Of a stretch of 52,797 nucleotides of DNA, positions 2,614 through 41,438 are shown piece by piece. Source of the stretch: Saccoglossus kowalevskii (taxonomy: Eukaryota > Hemichordata > Enteropneusta > Harrimaniidae). The translations under genes were made by a program, and so were the position numbers. Location: positions 8,244 through 61,040 of the forward strand of contig NW_003142305.1 of the NCBI RefSeq assembly GCF_000003605.2, in the 5' to 3' direction. The notes under the pieces are model-generated. The model was not told the origin of the DNA. It saw only the letters and a program-made list of their open reading frames with translations, and searched no databases. Numbering within the stretch: the first letter of the stretch is position 1; each line of letters begins with the position of its first letter.

Positions 2614-5456
2614 GTCATTGGCCATTTGACATCCAATGTGAAGTCTCCAGATTGGAAAACTGAGGTGTACGTTGACTCATGGTCACATTTGAGTGTTGTC
2701 ATATGTTTGAATCGTAAACACATTGGGCCATATGTAGGTATAGCATTTACCAAAATTATTTTACCAGTATTTAAATTTATTTATTTTTATTTTTTTTCAT
2801 TTAATTAAATAACAAAAAACACCAAAACAAACACAAATGCACACAAACAAAACAAAGGAAAAAAGCCACCTTAGACTGAATTTGATTTTGATGACTTGAT
2901 TTACAATCCCGTTATGATCAATTTCGCTGCATTGATGCAAACAAGCAGCTTCTAACTGGAAATAAATTCAGTGAACTGTGTCCCTGGTGATTTATTATTG
3001 AAATTTGGATGTGTGCATTGCAATGTCTTATGGTTCTTTTCTGAGATAAGTGTAAGATAGGTTCTTTTCATTAGTTGAGGCTCTCTTGTATTAGGTGAGA
3101 ATCAAATTTTTCTGACCAACTCTATGGTCATTTCATTTCCCTCCGAAAAGGGGGGGGGGCAGGGAGGGAAATGTGGGATGGCTGTTTTCTCATGAATTTG
3201 ATGGGAGACCCTCACACCAATTGACATCAAACAAACAAATAATCTGACTTTAATAACAATGTTATACAATTCATCTTAGTTCAAGAGAGTTATATTTACT
3301 TGTCAATTCCATGTGTTTTTAGAATTTATGTACCCCGGTAGTTATGCTTTATCTTGGTAAGAGGTTCCACATTAAAGAGTTTAAATCAAATTAAAAATAA
3401 TGTCTTTTCCACGGTATTATCATTATTATTAAAAAAACAATTGGGATCAATTAGGGAAGAAAAATCAAAAATTTTATGGAAAATGGTTAGAATTTACGTT
3501 AGCATTTGTGCATTGATTTCTATGGTGAAATTATTATTTCATATCTCAAAATTGTTCTTGGTCATATATTATAAATAATTTGAATACTGATATTGTTAAA
3601 ACAATTCAAAACATTTACATTTAAAGGGCGGTGGTTACCATACGAGTCTCATATGAACAAAGATGGTGATCTTGACTGTTACGCAGACCAACGAGTACAA
3701 ACTTGGATGTTACTAAGTTTTAACTATGTAATTTCTTTGGTGATTGAAAAGCATCAAGACAATTCGTACATGTACCGCCTGGGTCAAAATTTATGCACAT
3801 TGTATTGTGGGAAAAACAATGTTTGTCAACAGAAATGTCACACATGTGCGGCGCAACGACCACCGCACTTTAATTGCATTTTCCAGTGTGATAAATATTT
3901 TCCATTATAATAGAAAGTTCTTTCTAGTAATGGATTGCATATACATGTGCAGTTTGATTGTAATTCAAATTCACCTCAAACTAACTTAAAGCGTAAATAC
4001 TGGTATTTTTCAGATTACCCTAAGTGATACCGATATTTATCTTCATTCAACATGCTCAGAGAAACTAAAGGAAATTTTACTTAATAGTACTGTTATTGAC
4101 TGGGGAAACACAGTGTTCTTTGATGGTAAGTTTGGCATGTTAATTAATTACTTGTGTGCCCTAATTGTGTTTATTATGATTCACCATAGGATTATTCTAA
4201 AATGTATATACTTATTTTGTCTAACTCGTCTAAAACATGCTTTTTGAACATCATGTGGTTTTAGATTGTTGGTAGAAATTGGTAGGAAACAGAGAAGTAA
4301 ATTATTCAAGGAAATCATTCAGGTTCTTTACTTTTTCATTTGAGTAGCTCCAAACATGATTGTGTTTTAATTTTATCAACAGGAATTGATGATGCTTTGT
4401 TACCAGACTTGCAAGAAATCGCACCTCAATCAGGAAAACTCAAGTTGGAATTTTGTGCCAACATTCATTTACATACAAATACTGACAGATTGAATTGGTA
4501 AGTAAGTTGTACTTTGAAAATCACGCACTGACAGTTTGATAGGTAATTATTCACTCTGTTCATGCACATATGTCATATTATATATGATTTAATCATATAT
4601 GTGGGTGGACCAATCAGATAGATTTGATTTATTCCTGATCAGATTAATAACTGTTTTTGTGATCTTGAAAATGGCTACTGTAAAATACTTTATTTTGGCT
4701 GAAATTAATTTTGGCTGAAAAGACTTTTTGGGTGTTTTGTATGGAATTTATTTTCACTGGTTTTTGACAAGTTGAATGTAAAATATAGGAAAACAGGTAT
4801 ATATTCGCTGGATTTTATTTTCACTGAATTAATTCCAAACGAAAATAAGTATTTTACAGTATACTGATTTGATAATCTTTTCTCATTATATGCATCTAAA
4901 ACAGTGAAGTATATCAGACAACAAGCTGCCTGTTAAGACATTTGAATAAGAGACTACCAAAATTACATCAATATATGAATCAGAGTTCACCACCAAGTCG
5001 TAGTGTAGTAACGTTGACTTTTATTTCAGGGCTACTCCGAATGGAACTCTCCTTTCTCCATTGACAGTGGCTGAAGCGAGGATCGTTCTGAAAAACTGGA
5101 AATTTGGACGTGACTGGATGTTGTCTGAGATTGAACATATCATTCAAACAAACCTAACCAGTGGACTTTTCACCAATGAAGGTGAACTCGTAGCATGGGC
5201 TCTTGAAGGTTTCTATGGTGGAATTGGATTTGTGCACACATTGGAAAATCATCGACGCAAGGGTTATGCAAAGATCGTAGTAGCGGACTTGACAAAAAAA
5301 ATGCTGACAGCAGGTCAGACACCGTGGGCCCATGTGGAAGACCATTCAGAGAAAGGTGTGTCAGAAAGACTGTTGGAAAGTGTTGGCTTTCTCAAGAGTG
5401 ACGTCAGGCAAGCATTTATAGGTTTCGCTCCACATGGGAAAGAAATTATTTGGTGA
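2614..5456 (+). CDS. GLYAT-like N-acyltransferase, 3' four exons (5' exon not found)
   Basis: Four exons join in phase: 2614-2733, 4014-4125, 4383-4497 and 5030-5456, ending at TGA. Each has an AG acceptor and a GT donor (GTAGGT, GTAAGT, GTAAGT). Together they encode about 257 residues. The first starts VIGHLTSNV and continues into a DSW motif typical of the GLYAT N-terminal domain. The last is a GNAT/FR47-like domain with the acyl-CoA-binding loop HRRKGYAK, followed by a LLESVGF element. Family members transfer an acyl group from acyl-CoA to glycine or a related amine, usually in mitochondria; the substrate here cannot be inferred. Human GLYAT is about 296 residues, so roughly 40 N-terminal residues are missing, probably on an exon upstream of 2614 that I could not find. 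The last intron carries a MITE. Tandem-core repeat copies begin soon after the stop. Gene family sure, exact paralogue unknown. Confidence 0.85.
4676..4861 (+). mobile_element. palindromic MITE, copy 1
   Basis: Terminal inverted repeats TACTGTAAAATACTTTATTT / ATAAGTATTTTACAGTA bracket 186 bases with no coding capacity. A TA target duplication is suggested by the ends, as in Tc1/mariner-derived MITEs. It sits in the last intron of the GLYAT-like gene. Confidence 0.8.
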
Positions 5457-8370: not shown

Positions 8371-8751
8371 CTAAGCTTCAGCTTTTATAGTGGCATTCCC
8401 TGCGTCATTTGTTATTGCACAACAACTAGTCCCTCCATCAATGGCAGTGCAGTTTGAGTTGGAACCACTAGTATCTGGCATATGCCCAGCATGTGCTAGG
8501 AAAAGATCCTTGAGAAGACTTAATTCCTTCGACAGAAGTTTTACCTTCACTTCCAATTGTTCATTTTCCGCCTTCAATTCATTCACTTTTTTTAAAGTGT
8601 CTAATGTCCTCATTTTCGTCTTTGTACGACTTTTTCTCACGGCAATGTTGTTTCGTGCACGACGCTTCTTGTATTCCTCACTTTCCTTGGTAGGTTTATT
8701 TTTCTTGGTCTTGGATGCCTGATGTGGTGACTTTGTGCTGTCAGGAGCCAT
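8371..8751 (-). CDS. CEBPG: C/EBP-gamma bZIP transcription factor
   Basis: A complete 126-residue reading frame in a single exon with an ATG start. Residues 22-48 form a C/EBP-type basic region (SEEYKKRRARNNIAVRKSR), followed by a leucine zipper at about 52-85 that ends in the KELSLLKDLFL signature of this family. The protein is short and has no N-terminal activation domain, as in vertebrate C/EBP-gamma (about 150 residues). C/EBP-gamma is a nuclear protein that dimerises with other C/EBPs and ATF4 and binds CCAAT-enhancer-like sites. The coding region is intronless as in vertebrates. A probable 5'UTR splice acceptor (TATTGCAG) lies about 25 bases upstream of the ATG, so a leader exon probably sits in the shared upstream interval. 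It is head to head with the second C/EBP gene. Confidence 0.93.
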   Translation of the reverse strand: MAPDSTKSPHQASKTKKNKPTKESEEYKKRRARNNIAVRKSRTKTKMRTLDTLKKVNELKAENEQLEVKVKLLSKELSLLKDLFLAHAGHMPDTSGSNSNCTAIDGGTSCCAITNDAGNATIKAEA

Positions 8752-9765
8752 TACAAGTTAATAAACCACAATCACTGCAATAATACACTGCTTTATGCTC
8801 AAAATACTGAGAAGAAATTTGGGTCAGTCCAATTCTGTTATCAAATGGTGGCCTAGAACTAAAAAAAAAAAAAACAATTTAACAACAGAATACAGTATAT
8901 TATAGCAGAGGATGGGCTTCCATCAATTTGTTGATGAATTACTTATTTGCCTACAAGAATTTACGTATTTTTGATCGCCACTAATGGTAATTACAAGCAT
9001 GAATTATTCTGAGAAAATGGCCAGCATTTAAAAACATGTCAACAATCAAGGATTACAAATTAGAAAACTTTTTGTTTCTTATGTCTATGTTACAGTAGCA
9101 TACAATGCACGGCAGAAACTTTTACCTAGTTTATAAACACATTTATGGATATCATTACATATATATTCTCACCTTTCATTATGCAATTGTGATTGGTTTA
9201 AGAACTTAACATTCTTAATGTGTCCCTGCCTTCAATCATATTTGAATGTGATGTGGTGTATGTGACCACCCACTTATTTAAATTGAATAACTATGGTTTC
9301 TGGTAGTAAAAAGTGGTAAATTTCCTAAATTGATAGAAATCATATTTTACGTTCATACACACATAACAAAATTAAATGAAATACAATTTATATGAATTTG
9401 GTATCCCTACAGACCTGTGTAAACATTTCTGGGGGACGACATAATATCTATTCAACTTATGAAAAACTTAATCAAACTGGCTTCTGGGCGACAGTTTGTA
9501 GAATTGTTGTTGTTGTTGTTGGGGGGGGGGGGTTGTATGATAATAGGTAATCGCTTCTACTAATTGGAAAGAGAGTACTCTTTCCCAAATTTTACCCAAA
9601 CAGCCTGTATTTGAAGCACTGTGTTGAGTACAGAAATATACAGAATATTCAACTGCAGTTTCCAGTTTGTACTGTTGCACACCAGTGATATAAAAAAACA
9701 CCCAATTCAGTATCGACTGGCAGGCTTTCCTTGGTTTACACGTGTACGTTCAGTTACAATAACAA

Positions 9766-9774
9766 TGACGTAAT
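9766..9774. promoter_or_regulatory. CRE / C/EBP-ATF-like element
   Basis: TGACGTAAT combines a CRE half with a C/EBP-like half, the type of site bound by ATF4-C/EBP heterodimers. It sits on the C/EBP-gamma side of the shared promoter interval. Motif evidence only. Confidence 0.35.
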
Positions 9775-10670
9775 TGTCGTGCGAAATTGCATGCCATAAA
9801 AAATACTAGATGTCTTTCCAAACTCAATTTAAATTCTGTCCACCGTTCGAGAATAAAATAAAACGAACATTATAAAATACACTGTTGTTAAAATCTGTCA
9901 AACACAGTCCCCCAAACTACGTGTTTCGTTAAACCATCTAGTCGGTAACGTCACACCCCCCCTAAAGCACCGCCAACACCAACGACTGAATTTTGATCAG
10001 TTCTCGGTTTGACATGTTTTGTTGAAATAAGTTTAAAAAAACAACCTGAAAGCCGAATATAATCATCATGATATACAACAATGTAATTTGTGAACAATAT
10101 CAGGTTGGAGAATAATTTAAGGTGCACACAAGCAGACGGTTTTTATACTACTATGATCAACCCGATCGAAAGGCGTGACCTATTTTTTCAAACTAGACCT
10201 TTTTTGTAAATTCCAAAACAGACTCACCTAATTATGTGCCAGAACAAGAGTCAGTGTACGCGAGCGATAACAGCAAAATCAAAAATGTTCAATTACGTTG
10301 ATGAACTGTAGTTTGAAAACTGCGTTTTACTCTTTTTTTTTGTCTATCAAAGGTTTCACTACGACGACGCAAATGATGCAATGTCGGCTGCCATTGCGAG
10401 TGAATTCTACCAATCACAAGGCGCGAAGAGAATCGAATGTGCGAGTCCAGTCAGTGTCGAGCAGTGTGAAAGACAGTCTTCGATTGGCTACTATTTTTGG
10501 GGGTGACAGACGACATTTAACTCAGGTTTAGAACTTACAAGGTCCCAATTACAAGTATTTAAAGCGTTTTCGTACCAAGATTGATTCGAAGATACAATAT
10601 TGTTGATTTTAGTACACTTTTTTCTGAGAATTTTAAACAATTTCACGGGTTTTCAACAGCATTGCGCAAT

Positions 10671-10680
10671 CCTCAACGAG
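10671..10680. promoter_or_regulatory. consensus palindromic C/EBP binding site
   Basis: The ten bases ATTGCGCAAT match the optimal palindromic C/EBP site exactly. It lies about 600 bases upstream of the C/EBP ATG and 1.9 kb upstream of the C/EBP-gamma ATG, inside their shared interval. This suggests auto- or cross-regulation, which is known for vertebrate CEBPA. Occupancy is inference. Confidence 0.6.
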
Positions 10681-11260
10681 AACGAGGCTCTACTATAGTA
10701 ACTTGCTACCACATGTTCTAGTAGAGCAATCCAATCACATTGCCCTTAGATGATATCATGTACTATTTTTAGGATGTCACGTTTTCCCGCATCACATCTC
10801 ATTGAGCCGCAAGGTGTTTACGCACACTAATTAAGTCCCTAAATATAATTACAGTGGCCCCCACGAATAACATAATAACGTATTTACTTATTTTGAAAAA
10901 AATATTATTGTCAGTTGCTGAAAAATGTAAGTCGAAAATCAAGGAAACGATTTGCATATGTCTGAATAATGGACCTTTTATGCGTATTGATAATTCAGTA
11001 ACTAAAGTAAAAAGATATTGCTACGTAAGCCCACGTTTGGCGTGACGTAGCATTTCGTACATTCATCGACATAAGTGAACTGGTACGAAAATTTCTCGGT
11101 GAAATCGACCGACAGTACACGGTAAAATAGCCGTGGAAGAACATTATTATCCGAAGTTGCACAACCAAACCGTCAAGATAACTCCGCTAAGTGAACTAGG
11201 CTTTGATTTCGGCGAAATCACGGAAATCTCCGGCTTCAAATTCCACGACGAACTCTCACC

Positions 11261-11317
11261 ATGCCAGTCGAACGTAAAAGCAGCAATGGATTCTCCGGCG
11301 AACTTTTACGATTCTGA
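11261..11317 (+). promoter_or_regulatory. overlapping upstream ORF of the C/EBP gene
   Basis: An ATG with A at -3 opens 25 bases upstream of the C/EBP start, in another frame. It reads 18 codons and stops at TGA inside the C/EBP coding region. Vertebrate CEBPA and CEBPB use a short uORF to control alternative start choice (long and truncated isoforms). Here the uORF overlaps the main start, which would favour leaky scanning or skipping. The ORF is seen; the regulatory role is inferred. Confidence 0.5.
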
Positions 11318-12080
11318 GGTGGACGACACCAAACCAAAGAGTAATAATTCCGTGTTTCTCTTCGACGAAACGGTATTGGCAGATTACAGCGACATCTATC
11401 GCAACGAGGGCTCGATCGATTTCAGTTTATACCTTCAAGGCACCGCTGCCGCCAACTCGCCATCGACTACGGTGAAGAACGACGACATCTACAATGAATT
11501 AGATTTTCTACCCGCTTCGTGCAACCCGGCTTTGACAATAACCCCGACACCAACCGACAGCACGCTTCCAGAGCTCATAGAAGTAAATCAGATTGAGTCC
11601 AAAACGTCAAAGGAAGATACCGAATACATGTCTCAGATTGGCGAAAACAGAGCACCGCCGACAAGCGTCAAGACCGAGGCACAAGAGCCGGAGAAAATCG
11701 TCGTCACGATCAAGACAGAAAAGGACGCCAGTTCTCCATCTGTGTGTCAACACACCTACTCAACCTCCACACCTGAAACTCGAAATCGTCTGAAGTCCGC
11801 CCCAGCTAGCAAATCTCTCAAGGGAAAGCGTACGATCGACAAGAACAGCGAAGAGTACAGACATCGTCGCGAGAAGAACAACGTTGCAGTTAGGAGATCA
11901 CGTGAAAAGAGCAAGGTCAAGCAGAAAGAAGTCCAAAACAAAGTTTCACAACTGCAAGACGAAAACGATAAACTACAGAAGAAGGTTGAACTTTTGACGA
12001 AAGAACTGACAGTTCTGAAATCACTTTTCACTAATGTTGGAGTTACCCCTCCTGTCCTCAGTGGGTCAGACTCAATGTAG
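11286..12080 (+). CDS. CEBP: C/EBP alpha/beta/delta/epsilon-type transcription factor
   Basis: A 264-residue intronless frame. I place the start at 11286 because the protein then begins MDSPANFYDSE, closely resembling the C/EBP-alpha N-terminus. The frame stays open upstream to a stop at 11100 but has no other ATG. An acidic/aromatic N-terminal activation region includes a GSIDFSLYL element. Two sumoylation-like KTE motifs lie mid-protein. The basic region begins at about residue 182 (NSEEYRHRREKNNVAVRRSR), and the zipper runs to about 250, ending KELTVLKSLF. The product is a nuclear homo- or heterodimer binding C/EBP sites. It appears to be the single-copy counterpart of the vertebrate A/B/D/E paralogues. 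Neighbours are C/EBP-gamma (divergent) and a SPIDR-like gene (convergent). Confidence 0.93.
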   Translation: MDSPANFYDSEVDDTKPKSNNSVFLFDETVLADYSDIYRNEGSIDFSLYLQGTAAANSPSTTVKNDDIYNELDFLPASCNPALTITPTPTDSTLPELIEVNQIESKTSKEDTEYMSQIGENRAPPTSVKTEAQEPEKIVVTIKTEKDASSPSVCQHTYSTSTPETRNRLKSAPASKSLKGKRTIDKNSEEYRHRREKNNVAVRRSREKSKVKQKEVQNKVSQLQDENDKLQKKVELLTKELTVLKSLFTNVGVTPPVLSGSDSM

Positions 12081-14187
12081 TAACCTCTGTAGCAGTCGTA
12101 ATTTTACCCTTGTTGGATTAACGGAGATAATGAGATCATGCATTTCAAATTATGTATTAAAATTGTGTCCCTGGCAACCACATTTATTATCATGTCAGAA
12201 CACAGTTTATTTTCAATATAGACATGTTATATCTAGAGCAGTTTTTAAGTATCTATTGTTTTTTAAAGCTAGTGATGTTAGGTTAGAAACATTGTATATT
12301 CAGTATCATGGTGTGATATTAAATTATCAGTCATAATGGTATAACCTTGTTTTTAGCAGTCTTTGAATGTGTGTTGTGTGTGTTCGTTCAACATCAGAAC
12401 ATTGCTCCATGTAGTCTCAAAGCTTGCATTTACAATGCACAGTTTAGAATGCCTGGCTCAAAGTTCTTGGTGGTGAAGGAATGTGTGCTTTTATGTCAGT
12501 ATTGTTCAAACCAGCACTTGTAGCACAAGTTAGGCTGCTGTGTAGGTGGGTGGGTGGGTTGGTTCTAGTGTTGTGAAAAGTGAAACAAAAAACTGGTAGA
12601 AAGTATGGCAAGGTCACATGCCCTTGGAGGAGCATACTATATACTAACACACCCATGGAAAAAACACTCAAAATTTTCATGCAATTACTATTCTAGGTTT
12701 AATTTAAAGATGACAAAAATTGTAAAGTCATGCTGCAATACATGGGATTTCCCCTGAAAAGGACATTTTCCTTTCAAGGCATTTCTATTCATATGCAAAT
12801 TATAGTGTCTGATTGTGTTTTTCATGGTGTTGCATCACTTGAGGTCATGGGTTGCTATAGTGATTTGTATATAAATTTTCTGTTGGGAGTGTGGAAAGAA
12901 TAGTTTTGCTACCATATGTGATACACCGTGAAGCATGCGACAAACATGCTGTACCCATACGGTTGTTTTCGGACTTTGCCCAGATGACACTATGCACATT
13001 GTGAGATAGGTCAAACAAAGTCAAGGTCAAAACAGGTCATGGTCACTAGCTTATTGTCATCACCCAATATTAAAACTGAGAATTTGTCACTGGTTGTACT
13101 ATTTTCAGTTGTCATGGTGATCCTTCCAGCTGTTGATGAATGTTACACCATAAACTAAGTGAAATTCAGTTTTATAAAATTATGTTCAATTATTTGTCCA
13201 TCTCTGTCTGTGGATACACGTATACAGTGCATCAACACTTAAAGTGGGAATAATGGTAAAATGATTGTGTACACGTAGTCTTGTGATCACCAGTCACATG
13301 GTTAGTATCCAAACCACAATTACTTTGAGTAATGCATAATGCTGAAGGAAGAAATGGCATTTACATACAATGTATTGACTCCCCTGCCAAATGGCACTTG
13401 ATTTCATACTGGGTTTCCGCTAAACATTTGTCATTTGGTGATTTAATTTTAGGTTTGGCTACAACAAATTGTCATTTCAGTCACCAATGGTTCTGACTGA
13501 TTTTAAACCATGAACTGTTCTGACAATATGGTCATTTAAAAACATGTCATCATTGACAAACAAGAAAAAATATAGTTAACTAATTATTATGAAGTGGACT
13601 GGTATGTTACATTAGCAGATTTCAAGTTGAAAAATTTGCACATTGCTATTTGTTTGCAATTGGCTGACCAAAGTACAAATTGTTGTGTCCTTAAATATCA
13701 TCTAATTCAATAATAGGTAGAAATGTCCCTAGTAGCACTTAACTCACTGATTCTTGTGGCATTTTAGGGTGGAATCGGAACTTTTATTCAGCTGTTCCAG
13801 TTCTCACAGATGTTGTGTGTGTGACGTAAAGGTATAACAAGGAAAAGACAAATTTTCTGGTAAAATACAAAATATATTTAATTCAGCTTTGAAAATCAAT
13901 ATTAAAACAGTGATATAACAAAGTGTAAATATTTATAATTACAGCCTGAATCGCAGACACAAACTTTATAACTGTAGTATTACAGTTAAATTCATGGCAA
14001 ATTTAGTAAGGATTAATTAAAATAACAATAACTTTTGTGTGAGTATAGATGCCATGTGTAGTGGTTAAATTACAATTTATAAAATACTGCTTTGTGTACT
14101 GTACAGAATGTATTTTGTAACCTAAACCACTCATAATCAAAAAGGCTAGAATGATTATGAGTACACTCATGACCAAAAAAATGACAA

Positions 14188-14323
14188 TACTGTGGAATAC
14201 TTTATTTTCGCTGGAATTAATTTTCGCTGAAAAGGCTTTTTGTATGGAATTTATTTTCACTGATTTTTGATGAGTTTAATGTGAAATATAGGAAATAAAG
14301 TATATTCGCTGGATTCTACAGTA
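14188..14323 (+). mobile_element. palindromic MITE, copy 2 (internally deleted)
   Basis: The left half matches the other copies (TACTGTGGAATACTTTATTT, then TTTTCGCTGG), but the right subterminal arm is missing; it ends at TCTACAGTA. It lies downstream of the C/EBP gene. Confidence 0.75.
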
Positions 14324-14451
14324 TTACCATAGTAACTAACATACCTATCATTGGTGCCAAAGCATGTTGGTGTATGTGTTAATACTGCTTACATACGACT
14401 GTTCATTTCACATGTGCGAGAACCACTCCTTCCCTCCCTGAAACCTTGATA

Positions 14452-14650
14452 TACTGTAAAATACTTCATTTTAGCTGGAATTAATTTTTACTAAAAAGAC
14501 TTTGCGTTTTTTGTATGTATTTTATTTTCACCGATTTTCGATGAGTTGAAAGGTGAAATATAGAAAAAAAAAGTATATTAGTTGAATTTTATTTTCACTG
14601 AACCATCCCTTCAGCAAAAATAAATTCAGAGCGAAAATAAAGTTACAGTA
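14452..14650 (+). mobile_element. palindromic MITE, copy 3
   Basis: Begins TACTGTAAAATACTTCATTT and ends AAAATAAAGTTACAGTA. It has the same internal TTTTCACCGATTTTCGATGA core as other copies, with no coding capacity. Confidence 0.8.
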
Positions 14651-14935
14651 CTATGAATACAAGGGTACTCCTCCTGAGATATAAAGACAATTTAACAATG
14701 CCCTTCAAGTCCATATGAGGTGTGACAGTTGTAAAAGTATGTGAGTAGTCGATACAAGTATGGGCCGAACTGTTTAACTGAGGGGCAATGCAGCCCTCAA
14801 TCCATTGTTATACACGTGGTACCCATAATGCAATGCAGGCATCTTGCATCCACCTATGAAATCGATATTATAGACATTCAAAATGTCACAAGCTTCAAAC
14901 TCTAGTTGACAATGTATTGAATAAACATCCATTAT

Positions 14936-17900
14936 CTAAATTTGGATTTCTTCTAAGACTATCTGCTTCTTTGATGAAGATTCTTCCAGTAAGGCAAGTA
15001 CAAAGCATTTCAACGAATCAAGTGATTTACCCAGAATGCACTGCATGTCATATCCATCTTCAGAGTCATCAGAGTCTGAGAGTAATTTCTCTATAGTACA
15101 CTGCAGCAACTAGAGGCAACCAAAATTACAACCTTGAAGGTTATTTCTCATGAAGGGAAGGATGATATTGAAAAATTTCATGAAACCATGGGAAACCTTA
15201 CCTTTCTTGATACATTCTGTATTTTCATACAGAAAAAGTACAATAAATAATTTTTAGAGGTTTTATACTATTAGTAAAAATAATGGAATATTTACCTTAA
15301 CTTTGACAGTCATATTTTTTAACTGTGAACATTTTACGTATACTTCTAAATTCATTTTAATTTGTGGACTGGTTACACTTCTGTCACAATCATTACAGTG
15401 TAACTGTGTGACACTGAAATGAACAAAAAAATAAATTCTTAGCATGTTAGACAAAAATAAATATATACTGGGTAGTATATAGGTTGTAAACAAAAATAAT
15501 GTTCATAATGTAATATGGTGCCACTTCCTTTTGAAAGTCACTCTCATCCTAGTCTTAACATGTTAGGGGTGTTACCACATTTCACAGTCTTAACACAAAC
15601 AGATAACATTTTTACAGTTAGAAACATTGATTATTATTGAGCTGTGATCATGATAGCATACAAAATAACAGTTCATTGGTTTGTTATGAAATATAAGTGA
15701 AATTAAACTTATATATATATATAACCAATCAGAATGCTGGAAGAGCCAGATGAACGAATTCAGAAATATTTTAATAGCAAGACAGAAGTGCTTTACAAAA
15801 GTTGCGATTTGTTAAAAAAAAAGGGGGAAATTTGGATTTTCGGAAAATAAACTCATCATTATAGAAGTATTTAACACTTCACATTGATAACAGCTCAGAA
15901 AAGATTGAAATGTTCTAAAAATGATTCCTATGTTACCATGTTTGTATATAATAAACCAATTATGCTATTTATAACCAACTTTTTTATCAATTATCAGTTG
16001 GCTACTATCTTGCGATAGTCAGGTACCTACTTGTCATCTTCTCCACCTTGTAATCTTTCATTACCACAGACATCACAAGCTGGCCATGAAAATGCAGTGG
16101 ATTCATCAACACCATATATAACACCTACAGACATGGCAAAACAAATTTTTATCAACACATTACAAGCTGAAAACCTATAGTCCTTTGTGCTTGACCCACT
16201 TTTAATGAAATTTATTGATGCATTTTAAACCATTGAAAGTTCTGCCAGATGAACTTCAATATAAAGGTTCTGATTATTTGCTGATTGATACCTATCATCA
16301 ACAAAAACACACAACGGGAGTGTTAGCATGAATTAAAATCATTTCTGCACCTAATTCTGATATAATATACATGAACATTTTTGTTTTGGTCTGAATGGTC
16401 TCAATAATTAGGAAAACTAGCAAGTAAACATTTATATTAGGGAATTAATAATCAGAAGCACAAACCTTCAAGTTCCACCAGGGAGTGGGTTTTAATTTTC
16501 ATATCTACTAGTATTTTTGGTAAAACAATCTGCAATTTCCCAGAAAACTCTTTAGCTAGTTCATCACCAATGTGCATTGTGTCAGCTTCTAGTGATGTCG
16601 TAGGATCAGATGCAGTCAGAAAGACTCTACTACAAACATCAGCATACATATGTGAAGGATTATCTGAAAAAAATGTAATTTAATGTAATGTTCTTTTCAA
16701 GTCCATGTCAACTGGTATTATTTTCTACATAATAATTTTAAAATGTGGCAATAACCTGGGGAAAATCAGGAAACCATAGAAAGAATTCCCATGCACCGAA
16801 GGCTTGAAGCCCAAATAGGGAATATTTAAAATTACCGGATTCGGCTGATACCCCGCCCATCCTAAACCCTGCCCATGGGCGATGTTTCAAATAGTGGGCG
16901 ATGTTTTGGTCCACACATTGTCTGACTGAACCAACAAACATTTTTACAGACCCCAATTTTCCCGTCCGACATCTTGTATCGAGTGCGCTATTTCAAATAT
17001 GACGCTAAAATAATTCACTGTGAAGCCGAAAAGCATTAAAAACTTCAATAAAACCAATGGGCGAACTAAAATGTCTCCTGCGTTTCACATGCGACATGAT
17101 TATTAAAAAACACAGAGTTAAGCGATCATGTACGTTCTATAAAGCTAACCTTGTACACATAATCTTGTACTGACGTGTTTTTTCTCCAAAAAAGACGTTC
17201 TCTTTTAGTTAACCCCCAGTTAGCTTTTCGCGTTCATGGTATTTGTGAGAGTTGAAAGATTTTTTGAACACATGACAAGTAACTATATTGATTTACGTAC
17301 GTTACGTCATGTACGTTCTATAAAGCTAACCTTGTACACATAATCTTGTACTGACGTGTTTTTTCTCCAAAAAAAGACGTTCTCTTTCAGTTAACCCCCA
17401 GTTAGCTCTTCGCGTTCATGGTATTTGTGAGAGTTGAAAGATTTTTTGGGTGGCTCGAATTTAACTATCAGTGCGTGAACTCAAACCCGTGGTTATTAGA
17501 GTTCAGTCGAAATGTACGTGAATATTATTGCGATCGAGTTTATTATATTATAGTAAAATTTAACTTGACGCATGGTATGGTTTATATTACATGTTCACTT
17601 TATTTTGAATAAAAAAATCACCATTGGAACATTGGTGAATCACAAGTATTTAAAATATTTTCTTGACTTTCCATAGATACCCGACTACTATCATTTTTAA
17701 TGATTTAAATGCGCCAATGTTTATGTTTGCATAATTATTACGAATGCAACGCATTATCAAGTCGGTAATATTGAAATATTCACAGACCCAATACCCCGGG
17801 TCAGTGCCCTAACAATAGTAAAAATTAACTTGAGTTTGCGTAATTATCATGAAAGCAATACATTTAATACAAAGTTGAAATATTCAGAGCTGGTACAATA

Positions 17901-20714
17901 TTGTAAACAAATTTGCGTAATTAGAAAAGCAGTGCACTAAGTAAACGACGTTGATATATTCAAAGCCAGTACATAGTTGCATACAAGTTGCGTAATTACA
18001 GTACCGTCGGATATAAGGAAAATTTTACTAGATCGACGTGCGCACCGCAAAAGAAAAAGGTTGCTAAGGTAACGCGCCAGTTCAGCGCGTGAGTTGGGGT
18101 CAAACTTCGGTCAACACAGGGGGGGGGGATTGGCACGAGAGGGCGCCATCCAATCTGAATGGAACGTTTCGACGTCAGTCGTCCGTAGCCATCATCAAAG
18201 CAACAACGTCCCGTTTACGAACAGATGAAATAATTTCAGCAATTTCTTTACAGAATAATCCTCAACAAAACTTAGAAACATTTCATAGACAACTACAGGC
18301 TCCAAAATTATTGTCTATTGCAAAACAATTCAACTGACAACCAGTTTGACGCCACAATTTCTTGCTGGAGCCCGAGTTCTATGCGTGATTTTATTGCGTT
18401 CAAAACTGTTCCATTTCAAACTGCGCATGCACAAACACTGTGGTTTCTCGAAATGCATGCTAATTAGATAACTTGTCACTGATAAAAGTCACCGAAAACA
18501 TTTTGAGCAATTTTGAGCAATAGTACTAGAGTGAAATTTAAACGTGCCTCTGCATTCTCCATGAATTTCGTAACTTGCTATGATCATGGTAAAGAGAAAA
18601 CCTATGCTTACTTTCAACAGTTAGCTGGAGTCGAATCGAAAATGTGTCTCAAAAAATACCTTTACATCATTTTTCCGAATATTTGTTCAGCTCGTAACGA
18701 TAGAATCAGTCAATTTAGAACTAACATGTATGCTATCGGAAAGCATTTTGGCACAATATTACTGAAAAAACGAGTTTTTCATTGCTCATGAATATTAATT
18801 TATGCAAATGAGACGATTATTTCAACCAATCGTGTCATGCAACTCCCCCCCTGGGTCAACACACACTTGATGCCAGCATCACCGCGCAGCAAGTTTCGCA
18901 AAGAAGTACTTCAAGTTCAATTGCGTCCCAAAATTATGTCGCTAATCACTCGGTTGTCGCAGCGTGTGTTGTGTCATGTCCATGATGCACCCCGTTTCGA
19001 CTTGCTTTTCCTTTTTAGTGCATGTTCTTGTTCACGTAAAATTCGACCTCTCACCAATGTTTTAAAACACTTTGAATTTATACTTTGCATGATTATATTT
19101 GGTCAACGCGAAACATTATTTTTTCTAGACCATTTCTATCAATGCAGGGTTATTTTTTTAGACAAGATGGGCCTCGTAATATCTGCCATCTTTTGGTCAA
19201 CATTTTTCTAAAAAAAAATCGAATCCTCCATAAGATCGCCCAGGGTGGGGTATCAGCCGAATCCGGTAATTACAAATTGAAATCTGAGTAGTTGTCATCA
19301 AAAAATCAGAAAATAGTTTATAAGAAAATAATTTATGCTAATTAGATTATTAATATTCATCCCTTTCAACCTTAAAGTATTCATGGCTGGATTATCCAAG
19401 AGCACCTATGTACCAAGTTTCATAACAAATTGATGAGTGGCACTGTAGTTATATGTGAAACACCTATAAATTGGCTAATTTATGCAAATTAGAAAATTAG
19501 TATGCATGGAATTCCACCCAAATCTAGCCACATTGGTTCTTGCAATATATGCAGCTGAACTTTGGCCAATTATTATACAAATTAGAAAATTAATATGTAT
19601 AAACAGATTTCAACCCAAATGTACTAAAGTTACATTGAAATCTGACAAGTGGTTCTTGAGATGTCTGTCAGCCAGATTGCAATGCAGAAAACAGCACAGT
19701 TTTAGTCACACAAAATGATAAAGCCTGCCCTTTTGGTGCCTCCTAAACATTTAGCTAGTTTTGTGATAGCTGGCCAAGAGGGAGCGATACCATTTTACAA
19801 AATGGAGCAATGCCATTTTGTTTTAATGAATGCAGTTCTAGTGCCATATCTTTGACATGCTTTGACAAATGTTATACATGTATATTCATTATAATCATGT
19901 CATAGGTATACAGATTTATTGGTTTGACAATCCAATTCAAAATGGCCGAATGGTGGCTATTTTTGTGCAAAAAATCAAGTATTTCTGGCATTCCAGAACC
20001 AGACTGCGGCCATTTACAGATGGATTTTGTTCAAACATGGTACATACATTAGACATTATTGAACCTTGATGCACATCATTTTGTTTTTCAGATCAGATTC
20101 AAAATGGCTTACTGGTGGCCATGTTGTTTTAAGAATGCAGTTCTAGAGCCATATATCTGCATGCTTTTAATAATTATGTTCAAATTTTATATATTCATTA
20201 TACATGACATAGATAAACAGATGTATTCATTTGAATATCTGATTCAAAATGGCTTACTGGTGGCCATTTTGTTTTAATGAATGCAGTTATAGAGCCATAT
20301 CTCTTGACATGCATTTTCAACAATATTGATACAGCGATCACAGACAAAACACAAGACCTAGTTCACAAACACTATAGCATTTGGACTGACAGTTATTTTA
20401 GTTAAGGGTGGCGATATGTTAATCATATACCTACCAATGGCCTTCTCAAAACAAACATCTTGCAAATAGACCACCTGTCCAGCAGTGAGAGCTTGTCTCA
20501 CAGAACCCAACAGGGTACAGGAACTAGTGATATGTACATATACATATGGCCTTGGCTTGCATATAAACTTGTCATTCATATACAATGATGAATCCGTGAA
20601 AAATATGTGGTAGCCACCCATGTAGGTTTGTTGATTCTCTTCTCCAGTGTTCCCATCTGATCTGATGTAAACAAGTTTGCCATATATGCACACTCTGCAG
20701 TGCTTACATTCAAG
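14936..20714 (-). CDS. SPIDR: SPIDR-like DNA-repair scaffold, C-terminal five exons
   Basis: Five minus-strand exons join in phase in transcription order: 20714-20435, 16663-16466, 16124-16031, 15413-15296 and 15100-14936, with a TAG stop. They encode about 284 residues. The first reads ECKHCRVCIYGKLVYIR and ends VVYLQDVCFEKAI, an OB-fold-like segment. The third and fourth supply a split zinc ribbon (CDVC, then CNDC) followed by a conserved LEVYVKCSQ stretch. The last holds ILGKSLDSLKCFV. This pattern matches the C-terminus of SPIDR (KIAA0146) as I recall it; SPIDR bridges RAD51/FIGNL1 and BLM in homologous recombination. Tail-to-tail position with a C/EBP gene matches the human SPIDR-CEBPD order. 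SHLD2-type OB/zinc-ribbon proteins are the alternative. Human SPIDR is about 915 residues; the upstream exons were not found. The intron between the first two exons holds a TIR element with a nested hAT-like element. Confidence 0.65.
17128..17443. repeat. direct duplication, ~136-base units 180 apart
   Basis: The block starting CATGTACGTTCTATAAAGCT at 17128 recurs at 17308 with very few differences through the stretch ending AGAGTTGAAAGATTTTTTG. It is internal to the TACCGG-ended element. Confidence 0.85.
18117..18853 (+). mobile_element. hAT-like non-autonomous element, copy 1
   Basis: Ends CAGGGGGGGGGATTGGCA and (complement) CAGGGGGGGAGTTGCA form short inverted repeats. They are flanked by a perfect 8-base duplication GGTCAACA (18109-18116 and 18854-18861). 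CAG-initial ends with an 8-base target duplication are the hAT signature. The internal open frames resemble no transposase. Confidence 0.8.
19310..20340. repeat. tandem-core-type repeats, ~160-base period
   Basis: From about 19320 to 19680 there are degenerate units with ATTAGAAAATTAAT and CAAGTTTCATAAC motifs. From 19775 to 20330, three to four units share TTCAAAATGGC, TGGTGGCCAT and TTTTAATGAATGCAGTT with a ~150-165-base spacing. This lies in the intron upstream of SPIDR exon 2 (in recovered order). Confidence 0.6.
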
Positions 20715-20774: not shown

Positions 20775-22029
20775 TACCGTATTACCCCGCACGCGCCCAG
20801 AGGCCTGAACGTACAAAATCGGGAAAAATTGGGGGTGGGCGCTTACCCGATTTGTGATCGTATGATAAGGTCAAATAAAGGAATGCTTTCGTACACTTTG
20901 TACACGTACTTATTTTTTGATTTATGCGAGGTTTCAATAAATGTGAGCACTCGGTCAAGAACTGTGGGAACACTAAGACACAGGGTCGAATTTCAAGAAT
21001 AAAACTTGTTTTATGTCAGCGAATGAAGTTGTATTACTCACTGAAATTGACTACAAACATGTTAAGTATTGTAATCAATGCACGGTTACATTTTTAGTAA
21101 CCGTGATCACTGCAAGTCGAAACGGCCGGGAAAAACTACCGCTTGTAATCCAAGAAGGCGATGACCTCATTAGCATAATTTTGTTCACACATGTATTGAT
21201 ACATCGCATCGTAATTACTGAAGAATACAGACAGGGTTATGAAACAAAAATAAACTTTTATTACTGATGTGAAATGTTTACAAACTATTGTGAATACATA
21301 AACATATCCAAATGGCGATACATAAAAAACAGACTGAAAATAAACTCTGGTCGACCTCATTAACATGATTTATTCACGCACCCACACACGTGACAAAATT
21401 ACAAAAATAACGATGATGCAACAAGTTCCCATCGTCGGCATGCCTCATTATGGTTATCGTGATGGACTTGAGGTCGGCAAAATGTTTTTTCTTCAACAAC
21501 AGAAAAATAATCCACATGCTGTGATGAAGGATGGAAAGAAAGTAGCAAGTTTACGACGTGATGTCTCAAAAGTGCGAGCTCCCATTATGGATTCACAGTC
21601 AGCGAAATGCTACGTTTTGAAACCAAAGCTAAGTGATTCAAACTACTCACCAAGGTATGGATCGTTGCAATATTGCAATATTGGATTCATCGTGAATGAA
21701 GAGAAAGCAGAACGTGTGCGCCACATGCTGCGTGGTTCATCTTACGTTGTTAAGTTCCAATGCGTTTTTACGTAAAAACACAAACAAAGCGGCTCTTTTC
21801 AGGGCCACCACACACTCCAAAAAGAGAACTACCGTAACAAACATACTATTTAAATAAATTGAACGCGTTCGTTTTTGAATATTGACAAATAAAACTTTAT
21901 TGTTGACCCCGTTCTTGGCTAAAAATCACCCTGGGCGTTTAACCGAGGATGTCCCCAACATGTAACTTTTGTGAAAACAGGGGGTGGGTGCTTGCCCAGG
22001 GAGGGGCGCGTGCCCGGGGTAATACGGTA
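20775..22029. mobile_element. TIR element with TACCGTATTACCCCG ends (1.25 kb)
   Basis: Inverted ends TACCGTATTACCCCG are followed on both sides by a subterminal GGGTGGG-GCTT-CCC motif. It is inserted only about 60 bases from SPIDR exon 1 (in recovered order). It carries a 136-residue ORF. It appears related to the larger element at 25.5-28.0 kb by terminal and subterminal sequence. Confidence 0.75.
21365..21775 (+). CDS. hypothetical protein of TIR element, possibly HIRAN-like
   Basis: An ATG-initiated 136-residue frame lies between the inverted ends. The central part (GLEVGKMFFLQQ, then NPHAVMKDGKKVASLRRDVS) loosely follows the order of a HIRAN-type fold (GL-VG-...-NP-AV-V-DG-KVG-LPR-S), a small DNA-end-binding module. 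I saw no transposase catalytic motif. Function is unassigned; a chance frame is possible. Confidence 0.35.
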   Translation: MIYSRTHTRDKITKITMMQQVPIVGMPHYGYRDGLEVGKMFFLQQQKNNPHAVMKDGKKVASLRRDVSKVRAPIMDSQSAKCYVLKPKLSDSNYSPRYGSLQYCNIGFIVNEEKAERVRHMLRGSSYVVKFQCVFT

Positions 22030-23356: not shown

Positions 23357-24315
23357 AAATTAAACCCAGCAAGTTAGTTTTCCTACATTGTAGCATAGCA
23401 AGTTAGTCTTCCTACATTGTAGCATAGCAAGTTAGTCTTCCTACATTGTAGCATAGCAAGTTATTCTTCCTACATTGTAGCATAGCAAGGTATTCTTCCT
23501 ACAATACATCGTAGCATAGCAAGTTAGTCTTCCTACAATACATCGTAGCATAGCAAGTTAGTTTTCCTACATTGTAGCATAGCAAGTTATTCTTCCTACA
23601 TTGTAGCATAGCAAGTTAGTCTTCCTACATTGTAGCATAGCAAGTTAGTCTTCCTACATTGTAGCATAGCAAGTTAGTCTTCCTACATTGTTAATGTAGC
23701 ATAGCAAGTTAGTCTTCCTACATTGTAGCATAGCAAGTTAGTCTTCCTACATTGTAGCATAGCAAGTTAGTCTTCCTACATTGTATCATAGCAAGTTAGT
23801 CTTCCTACATTGTAGCATAGCAAGTTAGTCTTCCTACATTGTATCATAGCAAGTTATTCTTCCTACATCGTAGCATAGCAAGTTAGTTTTCCTACATTGT
23901 AGCATAGCAAGTTATTCTTCCTACATTGTAGCATAGCAAGTTAGTCTTCCTACATTGTAGCATAGCAAGTTAGTCTTCCTACATTCTAGCATAGCAAGTT
24001 AGTCTTCCTACATTGTTAATGTAGCATAGCAAGTTAGTCTTCCTACATTGTAGCATAGCAAGTTAGTCTTCCTACATTGTAGCATAGCAAGTTAGTCTTC
24101 CTACATTGTATCATAGCAAGTTAGTCTTCCTACATTGTAGCATAGCAAGTTAGTCTTCCTACATTGTATCATAGCAAGTTATTCTTCCTACATTGTAGCA
24201 TAGCGAGTTAGTCTTCCTACATTGTAGCATAGCAAGTTAGTCTTCCTACATTGTAGCATAGCAAGTTAGTCTTCCTACATTGTAGCATAGCAAGTTAGTC
24301 TTCCTACATTGTAGC
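23357..24315. repeat. 29-base minisatellite, ~33 copies, with 325-base higher-order repeat
   Basis: The unit is TAGCATAGCAAGTTAGTC followed by TTCCTACATTG. Unit variants (TCATAGC, TTATTC, TTAATG insertion) recur at 325 bases, that is 11 units plus 6 bases. Adjacent units create the hairpin CTACATTGTAG at each junction. The array ends about 120 bases upstream of the first recovered receptor exon. Confidence 0.95.
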
Positions 24316-24435
24316 AAAGTTAGCCAGTGAAGTTCATTACTCAATATGAATTACTGCTATTAAATTTGAGACTTGCACACCACTATCTTCGTGGAATATT
24401 TTTCACACTAATTGTTTTTTTTTTCTTTTTTGTAG

Positions 24436-27400
24436 CTGGTCCAGTAGAAGAATGCAGTGAAGATAATAATTTTCAATGTCCTGATGGAAACTGCATACCT
24501 AAGGTGTTACTATGTGATGCACATAAAGACTGCAGTGACGGTGCTGATGAATCTCAATGTGATTGTAAGTACTATGTCATCTATGTATTTCTTGCCTCTA
24601 ACCATTTGGGTACTACCGTATGTTGTATTATGCCAACATTTCGGTGTAATATTTCGCCTATTTTTAGCGCTGCTGTCAACTTAGTTGACAGAACAGAGCT
24701 GTTCATATTACTGATCAGGGATCTGGCCAGCTGGTCGGCCCAACTGACGTTCAAAATTATTGACCATCAAATGCTTCCGACCAGGAAAATTGTAATATGA
24801 TTATAAAGTTGGCAACTCATTGTTTGTAAGTAAACATTTTCTGACGATACACAAAGTTTAATTTGAAATCTAAAATTCTGTCAAAATCAATTTCAATCTG
24901 ATATAACATGATCAAAGCAGAGTTCACAATTTGTTTATGCTACTCAAATAAAAACAATATGTTTATTGCGTGAATGGGTAAAATACATTTCAGCTCAAAA
25001 TCGAAACTGTTTTTCCAACTTTTACCTTTTAAAAATTGCTAATCACCGCTTTCAAAATCCAGCATGCACTATGAAATTCATGCCAACACATTATGCTACA
25101 TCATATTATTTCCGCAATGCAAACATTATGATCATTACCATTCGGAAAACATCACATTTAATCGGCAAATTTTCTTTGTATTTCATATCAAAACTAATAC
25201 ATTTTGTGTGTAATAAGTAACATGGCATCATGACCGAGTAAGAGGCATCATTGGTATATTTATCATTTGATTACTGGTACAAAATGTATCCAGAAAAGTC
25301 AAACGATCAAAGACTAGGTTTTATGATTAGCCAAGCTTGACCCGGCTGAAAATATGTAGGGGGGGGGGGGCACCTGAACATGGACATAAATAATGACTGT
25401 GGTAGGTTCAATATACCTAGGTAATGATATCTTCAAATTGTTCTGAATATTTTTGTCATCTTTGGAATTTTCAATTTTCTTGAAAATGGCTATTCCAATT
25501 GCTTTGATGCATGTACCGTACTTGACCGCGTTAGCGCCCATGCCCGGGCAAGCACCCACCCCCCACTTTTGCGCAATTTTTGACTCCCATGTGCGAAGCA
25601 CAAAATGGGAGTCTTTGCAGTTAGTGTGTCTGTATGTGTGTGTGTGTGTGTGTATGTGTGTATGTGTGTCCGACTGTTCCACTGCTATCTCAAGAACCAT
25701 ACATCGGTTTTTGATGAAACTTGGTGCATAGATGCTCTGGGCCAATGCGCAGATTTGATTAGGTTTTGGTAAAATTTCATGCTCGTTAATTACCTAATTT
25801 GCATGATAATTAGCTAATTTTTAGCTGTTCTATGACTGTTCCACTGATATCTAAAGAACCACTCATTGGATTTTGATGAAACTTGGTACATAGATGCTCT
25901 GAACATATGCGCAGATTTGATTAAGTTTTGGTGAAATTCCATGCTCGTTAATTACCTAATTTGCATGATAATTAGCTAATTTTTAGCTGTTCTATGACTG
26001 TTCCACTGATATCTAAAGAACCACTCATTGGATTTTGATGAAACTTGGTACATAGATGGTCTGAACATATACGCAGATTTGATTAGTTTTTGGTGAAAAT
26101 CCGTGCATATTAATTAACTAATTTGCATGATAATTAGCTATTTTTTAGTGGTTCCATGACTGTTCCACTGATATCTAAACAACCACTCATTGGATTTTGA
26201 TGAAACTTGTTACATAGATGCTCTGAACAAATGCTAGGTTTTGATTAGTTTTTGGTAAAAATCCGTGCATAGTAATTAACTAATTTGCATGGTAATTAGC
26301 TATTTTTTAGTGGTTCCATGACTGTTCCACTGATATCTAAACAACCACTCATTGGATTTTGATGAAACTTGGTACATACAATGTAGATGCTCTGAACAAA
26401 TGCTAGGTTTTGATTAGTTTTTGGTAATAATCCGTGGATACTAATTACCTAATTTGCATAATGAGTAGTCAATTTTCGATTTTTCCTTTGATATCTCAAG
26501 TACTAATCATCACATTTCAATGAAACTTGGTACATAGATGTCATATGACACTGCACAGACCTGATAATTTTTATGGTAATATCAGNNNNNNNNNNNNNNN
26601 NNNNNNNNNNNNNNNNNNNNNNNNNNNNNNNNNNNACTGATATCTCAGGTACTCATCATCACATATCAATGAATGTTTATACATGGATGCTGTAGGACAA
26701 TAGACAGACCTGGATAATTGTGGGTTAAAATCTGTACATATTAATTACCCAATTTGCATAATTAACCAATTTTAAGCTTTCACACTGATATCTAAAGTAC
26801 TAATTTCCATTTTAATGAAACTTAGTACAAAGATGCTCTAGGACAATGTACAAACCTAATTAGTTTGGGGTAAAACTCTGTTCATATTATTTCCCTAATT
26901 AGCATAATAATTCATAATTTTTTGGTTCTAATCACATTTCAATTAAACTTGGTACATAGAGTTTTTGTTACATTGCGCAGACCTCATTAGTTTTACAATC
27001 AAATCTGTTCATGTTAATTTTCTGATTTGCATAATTAGTTTTCAGCTAAGTTATTTCAAATTATATTTAATGTGTCTCCAATACTCTCAGCACATGGGAG
27101 TTCTTTCTAAGCTTTCTTTGATTATATTTGGGGTCACATTCGGCAAAGCGCCCACCCCTTCAAAATGCAACTAATTTAAAACTTGGTCTTGCGTAACGAA
27201 TTTTGGTAATCGTTTTTATATGATACAACGTGGATATCGATCGCTGTGAACAGGTTGTGAATGCGTAGAACACGGTAACCGTGCGTAAACTACGCTTCGA
27301 CAATGAACTGTTAATACAAGCAAAATGTGGTAAATATTTCATGCCATATTCAATCTACCGCACCTCTCAAAAATGGCTAGTTACTAGTTTTTTGGAAAAA

Positions 27401-39718: not shown

Positions 39719-41293
39719 TCACGTAGAGTCATGACCACGAGTAAAGTGGCACATGAAGTCGTATTTGTCTCTACACACCTTGCCACAAACACCGCATTGA
39801 AATGGATTTTGATGATTGTGCCATCCCATATGTATGGTGTGCATTATGGTATCGCTGAAAACAATATCACAAAATTCACAAAGCAGTGAATCCTTATTTT
39901 GAAACTTGAATTTCATCAGGGACGACCTTCTTGATGGACTTGCAGCATGACTGGAAGGACTTGAGGGACTCAGACCTGACTGATTGAACATATGAACTGT
40001 AGTGTTGATGCCAGGACTGTTGATACTTTGCTGCGATGAAGGACTATGGGTAGATCTCATGGTAGGGGAAGATACCATGGATAAATTGTTTCCTCGAGGT
40101 ACTGATACAGGGCTTGAAGACGTTATAGACCTCCTAGATTTCCTGATTCTCTTTACACTACTGGTTGCTGCAATATTTAACTGACTGTTAGAACTTGAGG
40201 GAATGCATTCAACAGCATTTGGAGAAATTACGGAATTAACAGTCCTTATTTCTTCAACATCCTGATTGTTATGAGCTTCAGAGGTATTGAAAGAACTTAC
40301 AAACCCAGTATCCATTGCAATCTCCAAGCTATCCTGTCTGGTACCTGCATCAGTTGCACTACTGTCATCATCCACGGTTGTAACTTTGTCTTTCTCAGTT
40401 CTGACCTGAGCAGCATACAACAATTTCTGCTGCATGGGTGTTCGAGAGAATCCAATGCTCGCCTCAGAATTGGAAACCTTGCTCTCCTTTTGGCAATCAG
40501 TGAAACTTTGGTTTTCTACTTTTATGCCTGTCTCATCAGTCACATCCCCTGAAGGAACAGTCAAATCATACTCCTGCACTGCATTACCATGACTACCAGG
40601 TGCTCCATTATCTGCACTGAAACTTGTTGATGATGTCTGGTCTGTCTGCGTAACAGGATTTTCATTAGCACTTTGTGAACTGCTGGCTGCCCCATCCATC
40701 ATGTCGTTTCGCACTGCAATGCTGCCATTGTCTATGACTTCCCACTGCTGCACAGACATCATTGATGGAACAGCAGGTTGGTTTTGGAAAATAACACTGT
40801 CACTGCTAAGAGTTGGTGCACTGGTTGCTATAGATACTGGCATCACATCTGATCGGGTGGTGTTGATATGCTGCATATCAACATTTCTATCAAAACTGTT
40901 TTGAGCTGCCTGTGGCGATGAGAACCCACTCGACACTGGAGGTATAGTTTGATTATCATTTTGTCTACCTGCATTAACTGCACCAAAATGTCTACTTGCA
41001 ATGTGGACTTGTAAAGTATCAATAAACTTGAAATACAGACCACAATGTGGACACCGAAGTCTCGTCCTCTTGTTAGCATTAGTGTTGTTATGGCGAAGCT
41101 TAGTGTGAGCTGTTAAGTTTCCACGGATTGTACTGGCATATCCACATAACTCACAGCGATATGGTTTTGTACCAGTATGTATTCTCAAGTGTTGTACCAA
41201 ATGGCCTTTTTGTTTGAATGCCTGCGGACATAAAGTACATTTGAATGGTCTTGGAGCATTGTCCAGTACTCTGATCCTTCTGTTTGTCATCAT
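39719..41293 (-). CDS. Ikaros/hunchback-type C2H2 zinc-finger factor
   Basis: A 524-residue frame in one coding exon. An in-frame stop lies upstream of the ATG, and a 5'UTR splice acceptor (TATTTTCAG) falls at about 41439. Three N-terminal C2H2 fingers are at residues 19-39, 47-68 and 81-102; the first two are joined by a TGTKPY linker and contain QKGHLVQHLRIH and RGNLTAH. A long Ser/Thr/Asn-rich low-complexity middle follows. Two C-terminal fingers at about 472-492 and 500-521 (CEFCDIVF...TIHMGWH and CGVCGKV...FTRGH) have the unusual spacing of the Ikaros/hunchback C-terminal dimerisation fingers. By analogy it is a nuclear DNA-binding regulator that self-associates through its C-terminus. 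Vertebrate IKZF proteins usually have four N-terminal fingers and several coding exons, so orthology to one member is uncertain. Confidence 0.8.
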   Translation of the reverse strand: MMTNRRIRVLDNAPRPFKCTLCPQAFKQKGHLVQHLRIHTGTKPYRCELCGYASTIRGNLTAHTKLRHNNTNANKRTRLRCPHCGLYFKFIDTLQVHIASRHFGAVNAGRQNDNQTIPPVSSGFSSPQAAQNSFDRNVDMQHINTTRSDVMPVSIATSAPTLSSDSVIFQNQPAVPSMMSVQQWEVIDNGSIAVRNDMMDGAASSSQSANENPVTQTDQTSSTSFSADNGAPGSHGNAVQEYDLTVPSGDVTDETGIKVENQSFTDCQKESKVSNSEASIGFSRTPMQQKLLYAAQVRTEKDKVTTVDDDSSATDAGTRQDSLEIAMDTGFVSSFNTSEAHNNQDVEEIRTVNSVISPNAVECIPSSSNSQLNIAATSSVKRIRKSRRSITSSSPVSVPRGNNLSMVSSPTMRSTHSPSSQQSINSPGINTTVHMFNQSGLSPSSPSSHAASPSRRSSLMKFKFQNKDSLLCEFCDIVFSDTIMHTIHMGWHNHQNPFQCGVCGKVCRDKYDFMCHFTRGHDST

Positions 41294-41438
41294 ATTGAAG
41301 ATGGGAAAGTTGACTTCAGTTGTAACTTGCTAAACATGGTAGTTTAAGAGGAGCAAAGTATGTTCATTCATTCCATAAAAGTCGTAGGGAATCCATTTTC
41401 CAATTTTTATTTCCACCATAGAAGTGAGCCACCAAGAT

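Follow-up and report, generated by a model that had tools for sequence, protein, structure and literature searches.

In the mouse, chromosome 7 holds Cebpg, Cebpa and Pepd in a common neighbourhood (PMC3784412), where 64 kb separate Cebpa from Cebpg, its upstream neighbour, and Slc7a10 is found on the other side (PMC4418761, PMC4777376). According to PMC4418761, C/EBP-alpha represses Cebpg, and a myeloid enhancer of Cebpa is located at +37 kb, downstream of the gene. In human, CEBPD and SPIDR fall within the same region, 8q11.21 (FRA8I), and the SPIDR protein, which binds RAD51, BLM and FIGNL1, acts in homologous recombination (PMC5157955). In this report, we describe a locus of the hemichordate Saccoglossus kowalevskii in which both linkages meet. 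Our window is a stretch of 52,797 nucleotides, positions 8244-61040 of contig C3324 (848,871 bp) in a 572-Mb assembly of 4830 contigs, and all coordinates below are window positions unless a contig is named. It contains, within ~12 kb, a block consisting of CEBPG on the minus strand, CEBP on the plus strand and SPIDR on the minus strand, as established by open reading frames (ORFs) and profile searches, which very probably represents a retained ancestral neighbourhood that was later partitioned in vertebrates.

Mammalian C/EBP genes are also subject to a translational switch that is relevant here. As given in PMC11109482, human CEBPA has a six-codon upstream ORF (uORF) that ends 7 nucleotides before the long start and directs ribosomes to the short isoform via reinitiation, the uORF of CEBPB measures 36 nucleotides and ends 4 nucleotides before the start, and both the six codons and the seven nucleotides are conserved in the CEBPA homologues compared. 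The same source reports that in acute myeloid leukaemia the balance of this switch is frequently upset, by mutations that reduce the long isoform.

Results

The two C/EBP genes are arranged head to head, with start codons 2,535 bp apart across a gap extending from 8752 to 11285, while CEBP and SPIDR are tail to tail, with stop codons ~2.9 kb apart. Both orientations had been proposed in an initial annotation of this DNA. The head-to-head pair is confirmed by the ORFs, their strands and the bZIP_2 matches of both genes, and the tail-to-tail pair by the match of five joined exons to the Pfam family DUF4503, detailed below.

The minus-strand bZIP gene is encoded by an ORF at 8757-8371, in which the first ATG, at 8751, opens a coding exon of 126 amino acids matching bZIP_2 with an E value of 6.3e-15. 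This length fits C/EBP-gamma, a short bZIP protein that lacks an activation domain. Its best PDB chain is C/EBP-beta (E 2.3e-18), and it shares 49 of 85 residues with human CEBPG, in the sequence that we take to be that protein, versus 44 of 78 with C/EBP-beta. On sequence grounds its assignment to C/EBP-gamma is firm because it forms one group with human CEBPG (support 98/96) in a bZIP tree of 10 rows, built on a short alignment with a midpoint root and with presumed sequences in the human A, D, E and G rows.

The plus-strand gene, CEBP, runs from the ATG at 11286 to the stop at 12080 as a single uninterrupted coding exon of 264 amino acids with a C-terminal bZIP, which matches bZIP_2 (E 6.6e-14) and the C/EBP-beta chain 1hjb (E 1.4e-19). 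We label it alpha/beta-type on account of its length, of its one coding exon and of N-terminal motifs that, by eye, seem similar to what we take to be the activation motifs of human C/EBP-beta (ANFY, SIDFS and LDFL-like). Upstream of the main AUG, the frame has no stop over 61 codons. An N-terminal extension is not claimed, because such openness is likely enough by chance (0.044) and the codon use does not exceed that of shuffled sequences: of 20,000 shuffles 766 remained open, among which 379 reached the observed codon-use score, a weak test since the CEBP coding frame itself scores below zero.

A genome-wide exon search with the bZIP of CEBP returned seven places at E <= 10 among the best candidates scored, namely the two window genes, three PAR/NFIL3-type genes and two weak matches, one with internal stops (E 0.095) and the other at E 3.4. 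The three PAR/NFIL3-type genes were classed as such on basic regions like YWERRRKNNEAAKRSRD, which we assume to be diagnostic. The genome thus yielded, among those candidates, one CEBP and one CEBPG, which is the copy set expected before the vertebrate duplications. In PMC4736632, a CEBP-CEBPg duplication is placed on the bilaterian stem.

The third gene is represented by five minus-strand exons, located at 20435-20714 (exon A, the most upstream found), 16466-16663 (exon B), 16031-16124, 15296-15413 and 14936-15109, the last ending in the stop at 14938-14936. Their borders are canonical AG/GT and their phases (1, 1, 2, 0) agree, as judged by eye. When joined, they encode 287 amino acids without a stop and match DUF4503 with an E value of 8.4e-46 and 156.6 bits (cut-off 27), in one stretch covering positions 131-390 of 392, exon A entering the profile at position 130-131. 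DUF4503 is, we assume, the C-terminal domain of SPIDR, so that the initial annotation was right in calling this gene SPIDR. No SHLD2 model was among the matches of the joined 287 amino acids at E <= 10, and the only other family there is FtrD-like (E 1.8), which is unrelated. Across the genome, where three candidates were scored, DUF4503 matched at E <= 0.001 only two exons of the window gene, the third (E 8.5e-8) and the fourth (E 2.4e-6). These carry, respectively, the CDVC and CNDC halves of a zinc-ribbon-like pair that is split by an intron.

SPIDR is only half modelled because nothing was found upstream of profile position 131. DUF4502, the N-terminal domain of SPIDR, gave no genome-wide match at E <= 10, in a search that can overlook a weakly conserved domain spread over short exons, and 10 chosen minus-strand ORFs upstream of exon A matched neither DUF4502 nor DUF4503. 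A codon-usage scan of 151 kb was too noisy for placing more exons. Two elements with terminal inverted repeats accompany the gene. One of ~2.45 kb (16824-19277), located in the intron between exons A and B, has 35-nucleotide repeats that are 91% complementary and looks like a non-autonomous DNA transposon. The other, of ~1.25 kb (20775-22029), lies just upstream of exon A, has 22-nucleotide repeats that are 86% complementary and contains a plus-strand ORF whose match to HIRAN is weak and falls below the cut-off (E 0.0052).

Comparison with mammalian CEBPA revealed a uORF in the CEBP leader (11261-11317, plus strand). Its AUG (11261, context CACCAUGC) is out of frame and lies exactly 25 nucleotides before the main AUG, and its 18 codons and stop overlap the first 32 nucleotides of the coding sequence. 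CEBP itself has in-frame AUGs at codons 1, 115 and 264, codon 115 (11628-11630) being the only internal one before the bZIP, and between codons 1 and 115 there is one out-of-frame AUG only, which opens an ORF of two codons. A start at codon 115 would give an isoform of 150 amino acids without the N-terminal region. Judged from the sequence, the layout of the leader and AUGs is that needed for long and short isoforms. In human CEBPA, where six codons end 7 nucleotides before the long start (PMC11109482), the uORF AUG likewise falls at -25 once the stop codon is counted. The mammalian stretch TCGCCATGCCGGGAGAACTCTAAC, printed as a CEBPA primer in PMC10435843 (human) and PMC4277004 (rat), equals window positions 11256-11279 at 16 of 24 bases when its spacing from the main AUG is kept. 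Matches of at least 16 of 24 occurred at 2 of 302,032 placements (151 kb, both strands), one of which is the uORF site, and in 10 of 200,000 shuffles, and a match of 16 bases to one 24-base stretch could be chance.

The head-to-head gap was scanned for CpG and motifs as part of 151 kb of contig C3324, the motifs being picked after inspection. In 250-base bins, the observed/expected ratio of CpG is 0.85-1.75 across 9750-11999, a CpG-rich stretch that includes most of the gap and CEBP, and 0 to 0.48 in adjoining bins, except for 0.81 in the bin of the CEBPG exon (8500-8749); the mean over the 151 kb is 0.81, to which two gap bins (0.85 and 0.91) come close. Within the gap, ATTGCGCAAT at 10661-10670, which we take to be a perfect C/EBP palindrome, is the only copy in the 151 kb. 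A further site, TGATGCAAT at 10374-10382 on the plus strand, presumably resembles a C/EBP-ATF composite element and is weak evidence, since the pattern TGATGCAA[TC] has four matches on the two strands of the window. This 2.5-kb, mostly CpG-rich gap probably holds both promoters, and its C/EBP site may serve auto- and cross-regulation in a shared, self-regulated promoter region.

Other features were recorded outside the block. At 5004-5456 there is a GNAT exon that matches FR47-like (E 3.2e-14) and, less well and below cut-off, the glycine N-acyltransferase C-terminal domain, and at 23360-24310 a long tandem array with a unit of ~30 bases (TAGGAAGACTAACTTGCTATGCTACAATG). A receptor-like gene on the plus strand (24432-32515), modelled provisionally by setting exons end to end, combines three LDLR class A repeats and an EGF domain with a likely transmembrane exon that contains PPSY and PPPY motifs. 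On the minus strand, 39719-41329 is a single long C2H2 zinc-finger ORF, the last two fingers of which we take to be like the dimerisation fingers of Ikaros and TRPS1. Weak FG-GAP matches (E 0.043 and 0.084) occur at 44145-47846, in exons that presumably resemble the start of ITFG2, and a reverse transcriptase fragment (RVT_1, E 1.3e-7) at 46368-46937. The GC-rich segment 49500-52358 looks by eye like a tyrosine-recombinase retroelement, two tested pieces of it having no Pfam match. To the right of the window, C3324:97946-99277 (minus strand) is a protein kinase ORF (Pkinase, E 4e-54).

Contig C4830 is mitochondrial, and 16,363 of its 17,037 bp were read, with several protein genes named by eye. 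One of its strands carries consecutively COX3, tRNA-Gly, ND3, tRNA-Arg, ND4L, ND4, tRNA-His, tRNA-Ser, ND5 and cytochrome b. COX1 is encoded by the other strand, opposite both to this series and to ND1 and COX2, and we know of no described hemichordate in which COX1 lies opposite ND1 and COX2. In the alignment of COX1 with its best-scoring PDB chain (7o37_a), the eight ATA codons correspond to isoleucine five times, valine twice, leucine once and methionine never, and the sole AAA codon to lysine; TGA occurs inside the frame seven times, and the anticodon of tRNA-Lys is TTT. ATA read as isoleucine with AAA read as lysine, together with such a gene order, very probably indicates a hemichordate and, as we take these features, excludes echinoderms.

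Discussion

The first important finding of this study is that one locus in an invertebrate deuterostome contains both vertebrate linkages, for which one ancestral block is the simplest reading. Since three genes that are adjacent here make up two pairs on two human chromosomes, the human pairs probably stem from one ancestral cluster. This is what the initial annotation had proposed, and a single block is by far the most economical account, while its partition by genome duplications is a step that we only infer. On the vertebrate side, the proximity of CEBPG and CEBPA is documented in papers (64 kb in mouse); the convergence of CEBPD and SPIDR is one of our assumptions. We also take human CEBPG and CEBPA, on 19q13, to be divergent. 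CEBPG and CEBP would have arisen from one bZIP gene, probably by inverted tandem duplication, and the tail-to-tail position of SPIDR next to CEBP would be older than the split between chordates and the lineage of the hemichordate host. After the vertebrate genome duplications, different copies would have lost different members, the CEBPA copy keeping CEBPG and the CEBPD copy keeping SPIDR. Ancient microsynteny split by genome duplication is a phenomenon of a known kind. As for the instance described here, we found no paper on an ancestral CEBPG-CEBP-SPIDR block among those listed, judged by title or opening of the abstract, in a search whose coverage excluded most subscription journals, which is no proof of absence.

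Several observations weigh against a retained ancestral block. Although well supported by its logic and by the two vertebrate linkages, the block has been seen in one invertebrate genome only. In the 10-row tree, the window CEBP falls outside human A/B/D/E plus G (support 98/97), and not with A/B/D/E. The convergent orientation of human CEBPD and SPIDR is presumed, and with no trace of the N-terminal half of SPIDR ahead of profile position 131, the searches do not prove an intact gene. In genome-wide searches, seven matches to PRKDC-type exons lie on contig C256, one AMP_N match (PEPD or XPNPEP type) on C1911, and 23 of 23 matches to AA_permease_2 (SLC7A-type) likewise off C3324. A larger shared block is therefore unsupported, and since matches of these three types are on other contigs, the shared unit is, as far as tested, the three-gene core. 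The single genome and the unshared PRKDC, AMP_N and AA_permease_2 neighbours speak for the reading that chance rearrangement produced both linkages here, with no connection to those of vertebrates. We consider this very improbable, because two specific neighbours match in order and orientation: assuming ~20,000 genes, the chance odds of a given convergent neighbour are ~1 in 40,000, and the four vertebrate CEBPs bring them to ~1e-4 for SPIDR alone.

Whether the third gene is SPIDR at all, and whether it still works, bear on the same question. The CxxC...CxxC pair of the third and fourth exons, which we also associate with SHLD2-like OB folds, and the weakness of exon A on its own (E 0.0025, under the family cut-off) would fit a different OB-fold or zinc-ribbon protein, for instance SHLD2. 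This is scarcely credible, since the joined exons reach 156.6 bits (cut-off 27) along 260 positions of the profile, with no other family below E 1.8. That the SPIDR part is a 5'-truncated remnant of a non-working gene is improbable, if less so; the failure to find an N-terminal exon and the inverted-repeat elements before exon B and upstream of exon A speak for it, but a remnant would decay, and all five exons are intact in frame, splice sites and phase, without an internal stop. A more serious contender, although still unlikely, is that the block was kept by function rather than as a passive relic, with SPIDR co-regulated with CEBP or hosting its regulatory elements. SPIDR has indeed stayed the 3' neighbour of a CEBP gene in two very distant lineages, and the +37 kb enhancer of mouse Cebpa indicates that the 3' side can carry regulation (PMC4418761). 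However, the features recorded at the window locus include no conserved noncoding element. CEBPA, CEBPB and CEBPE, as far as is known, also do without SPIDR. A retained ancestral neighbourhood is our preferred reading.

The organisation of the CEBP leader suggests, tentatively, another possibility: the long/short isoform switch of C/EBP may predate the vertebrate genome duplications. Ribosomes using the AUG at 11261 would bypass the main AUG and restart at codon 115, making a product without the activation region. Vertebrate genes would have inherited this switch, shifting only the uORF stop upstream, and the switch would sit in the same ancestral block that lies behind CEBPG-CEBPA and CEBPD-SPIDR. 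Since the six codons and seven nucleotides are conserved among the CEBPA homologues compared in PMC11109482, the form in the window would be an older one. If so, a translational switch relevant to acute myeloid leukaemia would antedate the C/EBP paralogues of vertebrates, and an animal with a single CEBP gene would be available for its study. More generally, one invertebrate locus accounts for two separate vertebrate linkages, provides a pre-duplication outgroup for the C/EBP paralogues that tells which neighbour each of them lost, and allows the need of C/EBP genes for CEBPG or SPIDR as neighbours to be tested in a natural setting.

How the locus compares with its closest counterparts can be stated as follows. 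Like the CEBPG-CEBPA pair of human 19q13 and mouse chromosome 7, it has C/EBP-gamma 5' of a single-exon C/EBP gene, with the start codons 2.5 kb apart here as against 64 kb between the mouse genes, and with SPIDR as the 3' neighbour of CEBP where mouse Cebpa has Slc7a10. As in the human SPIDR-CEBPD pair, in what we take to be its orientation, a C/EBP gene and SPIDR meet tail to tail at this locus, but its C/EBP gene additionally keeps CEBPG on the other side, and its PRKDC-type exons are on another contig. With mammalian CEBPA it shares the out-of-frame AUG at -25, and with the switch of CEBPA and CEBPB the one internal in-frame AUG before the bZIP. The difference lies in the uORF itself, which has six codons in CEBPA and 18 in the window CEBP, and which stops 7 nucleotides before the main AUG in CEBPA and 4 in CEBPB, whereas here it overlaps the main AUG, so that bypass of the long start should be stricter.

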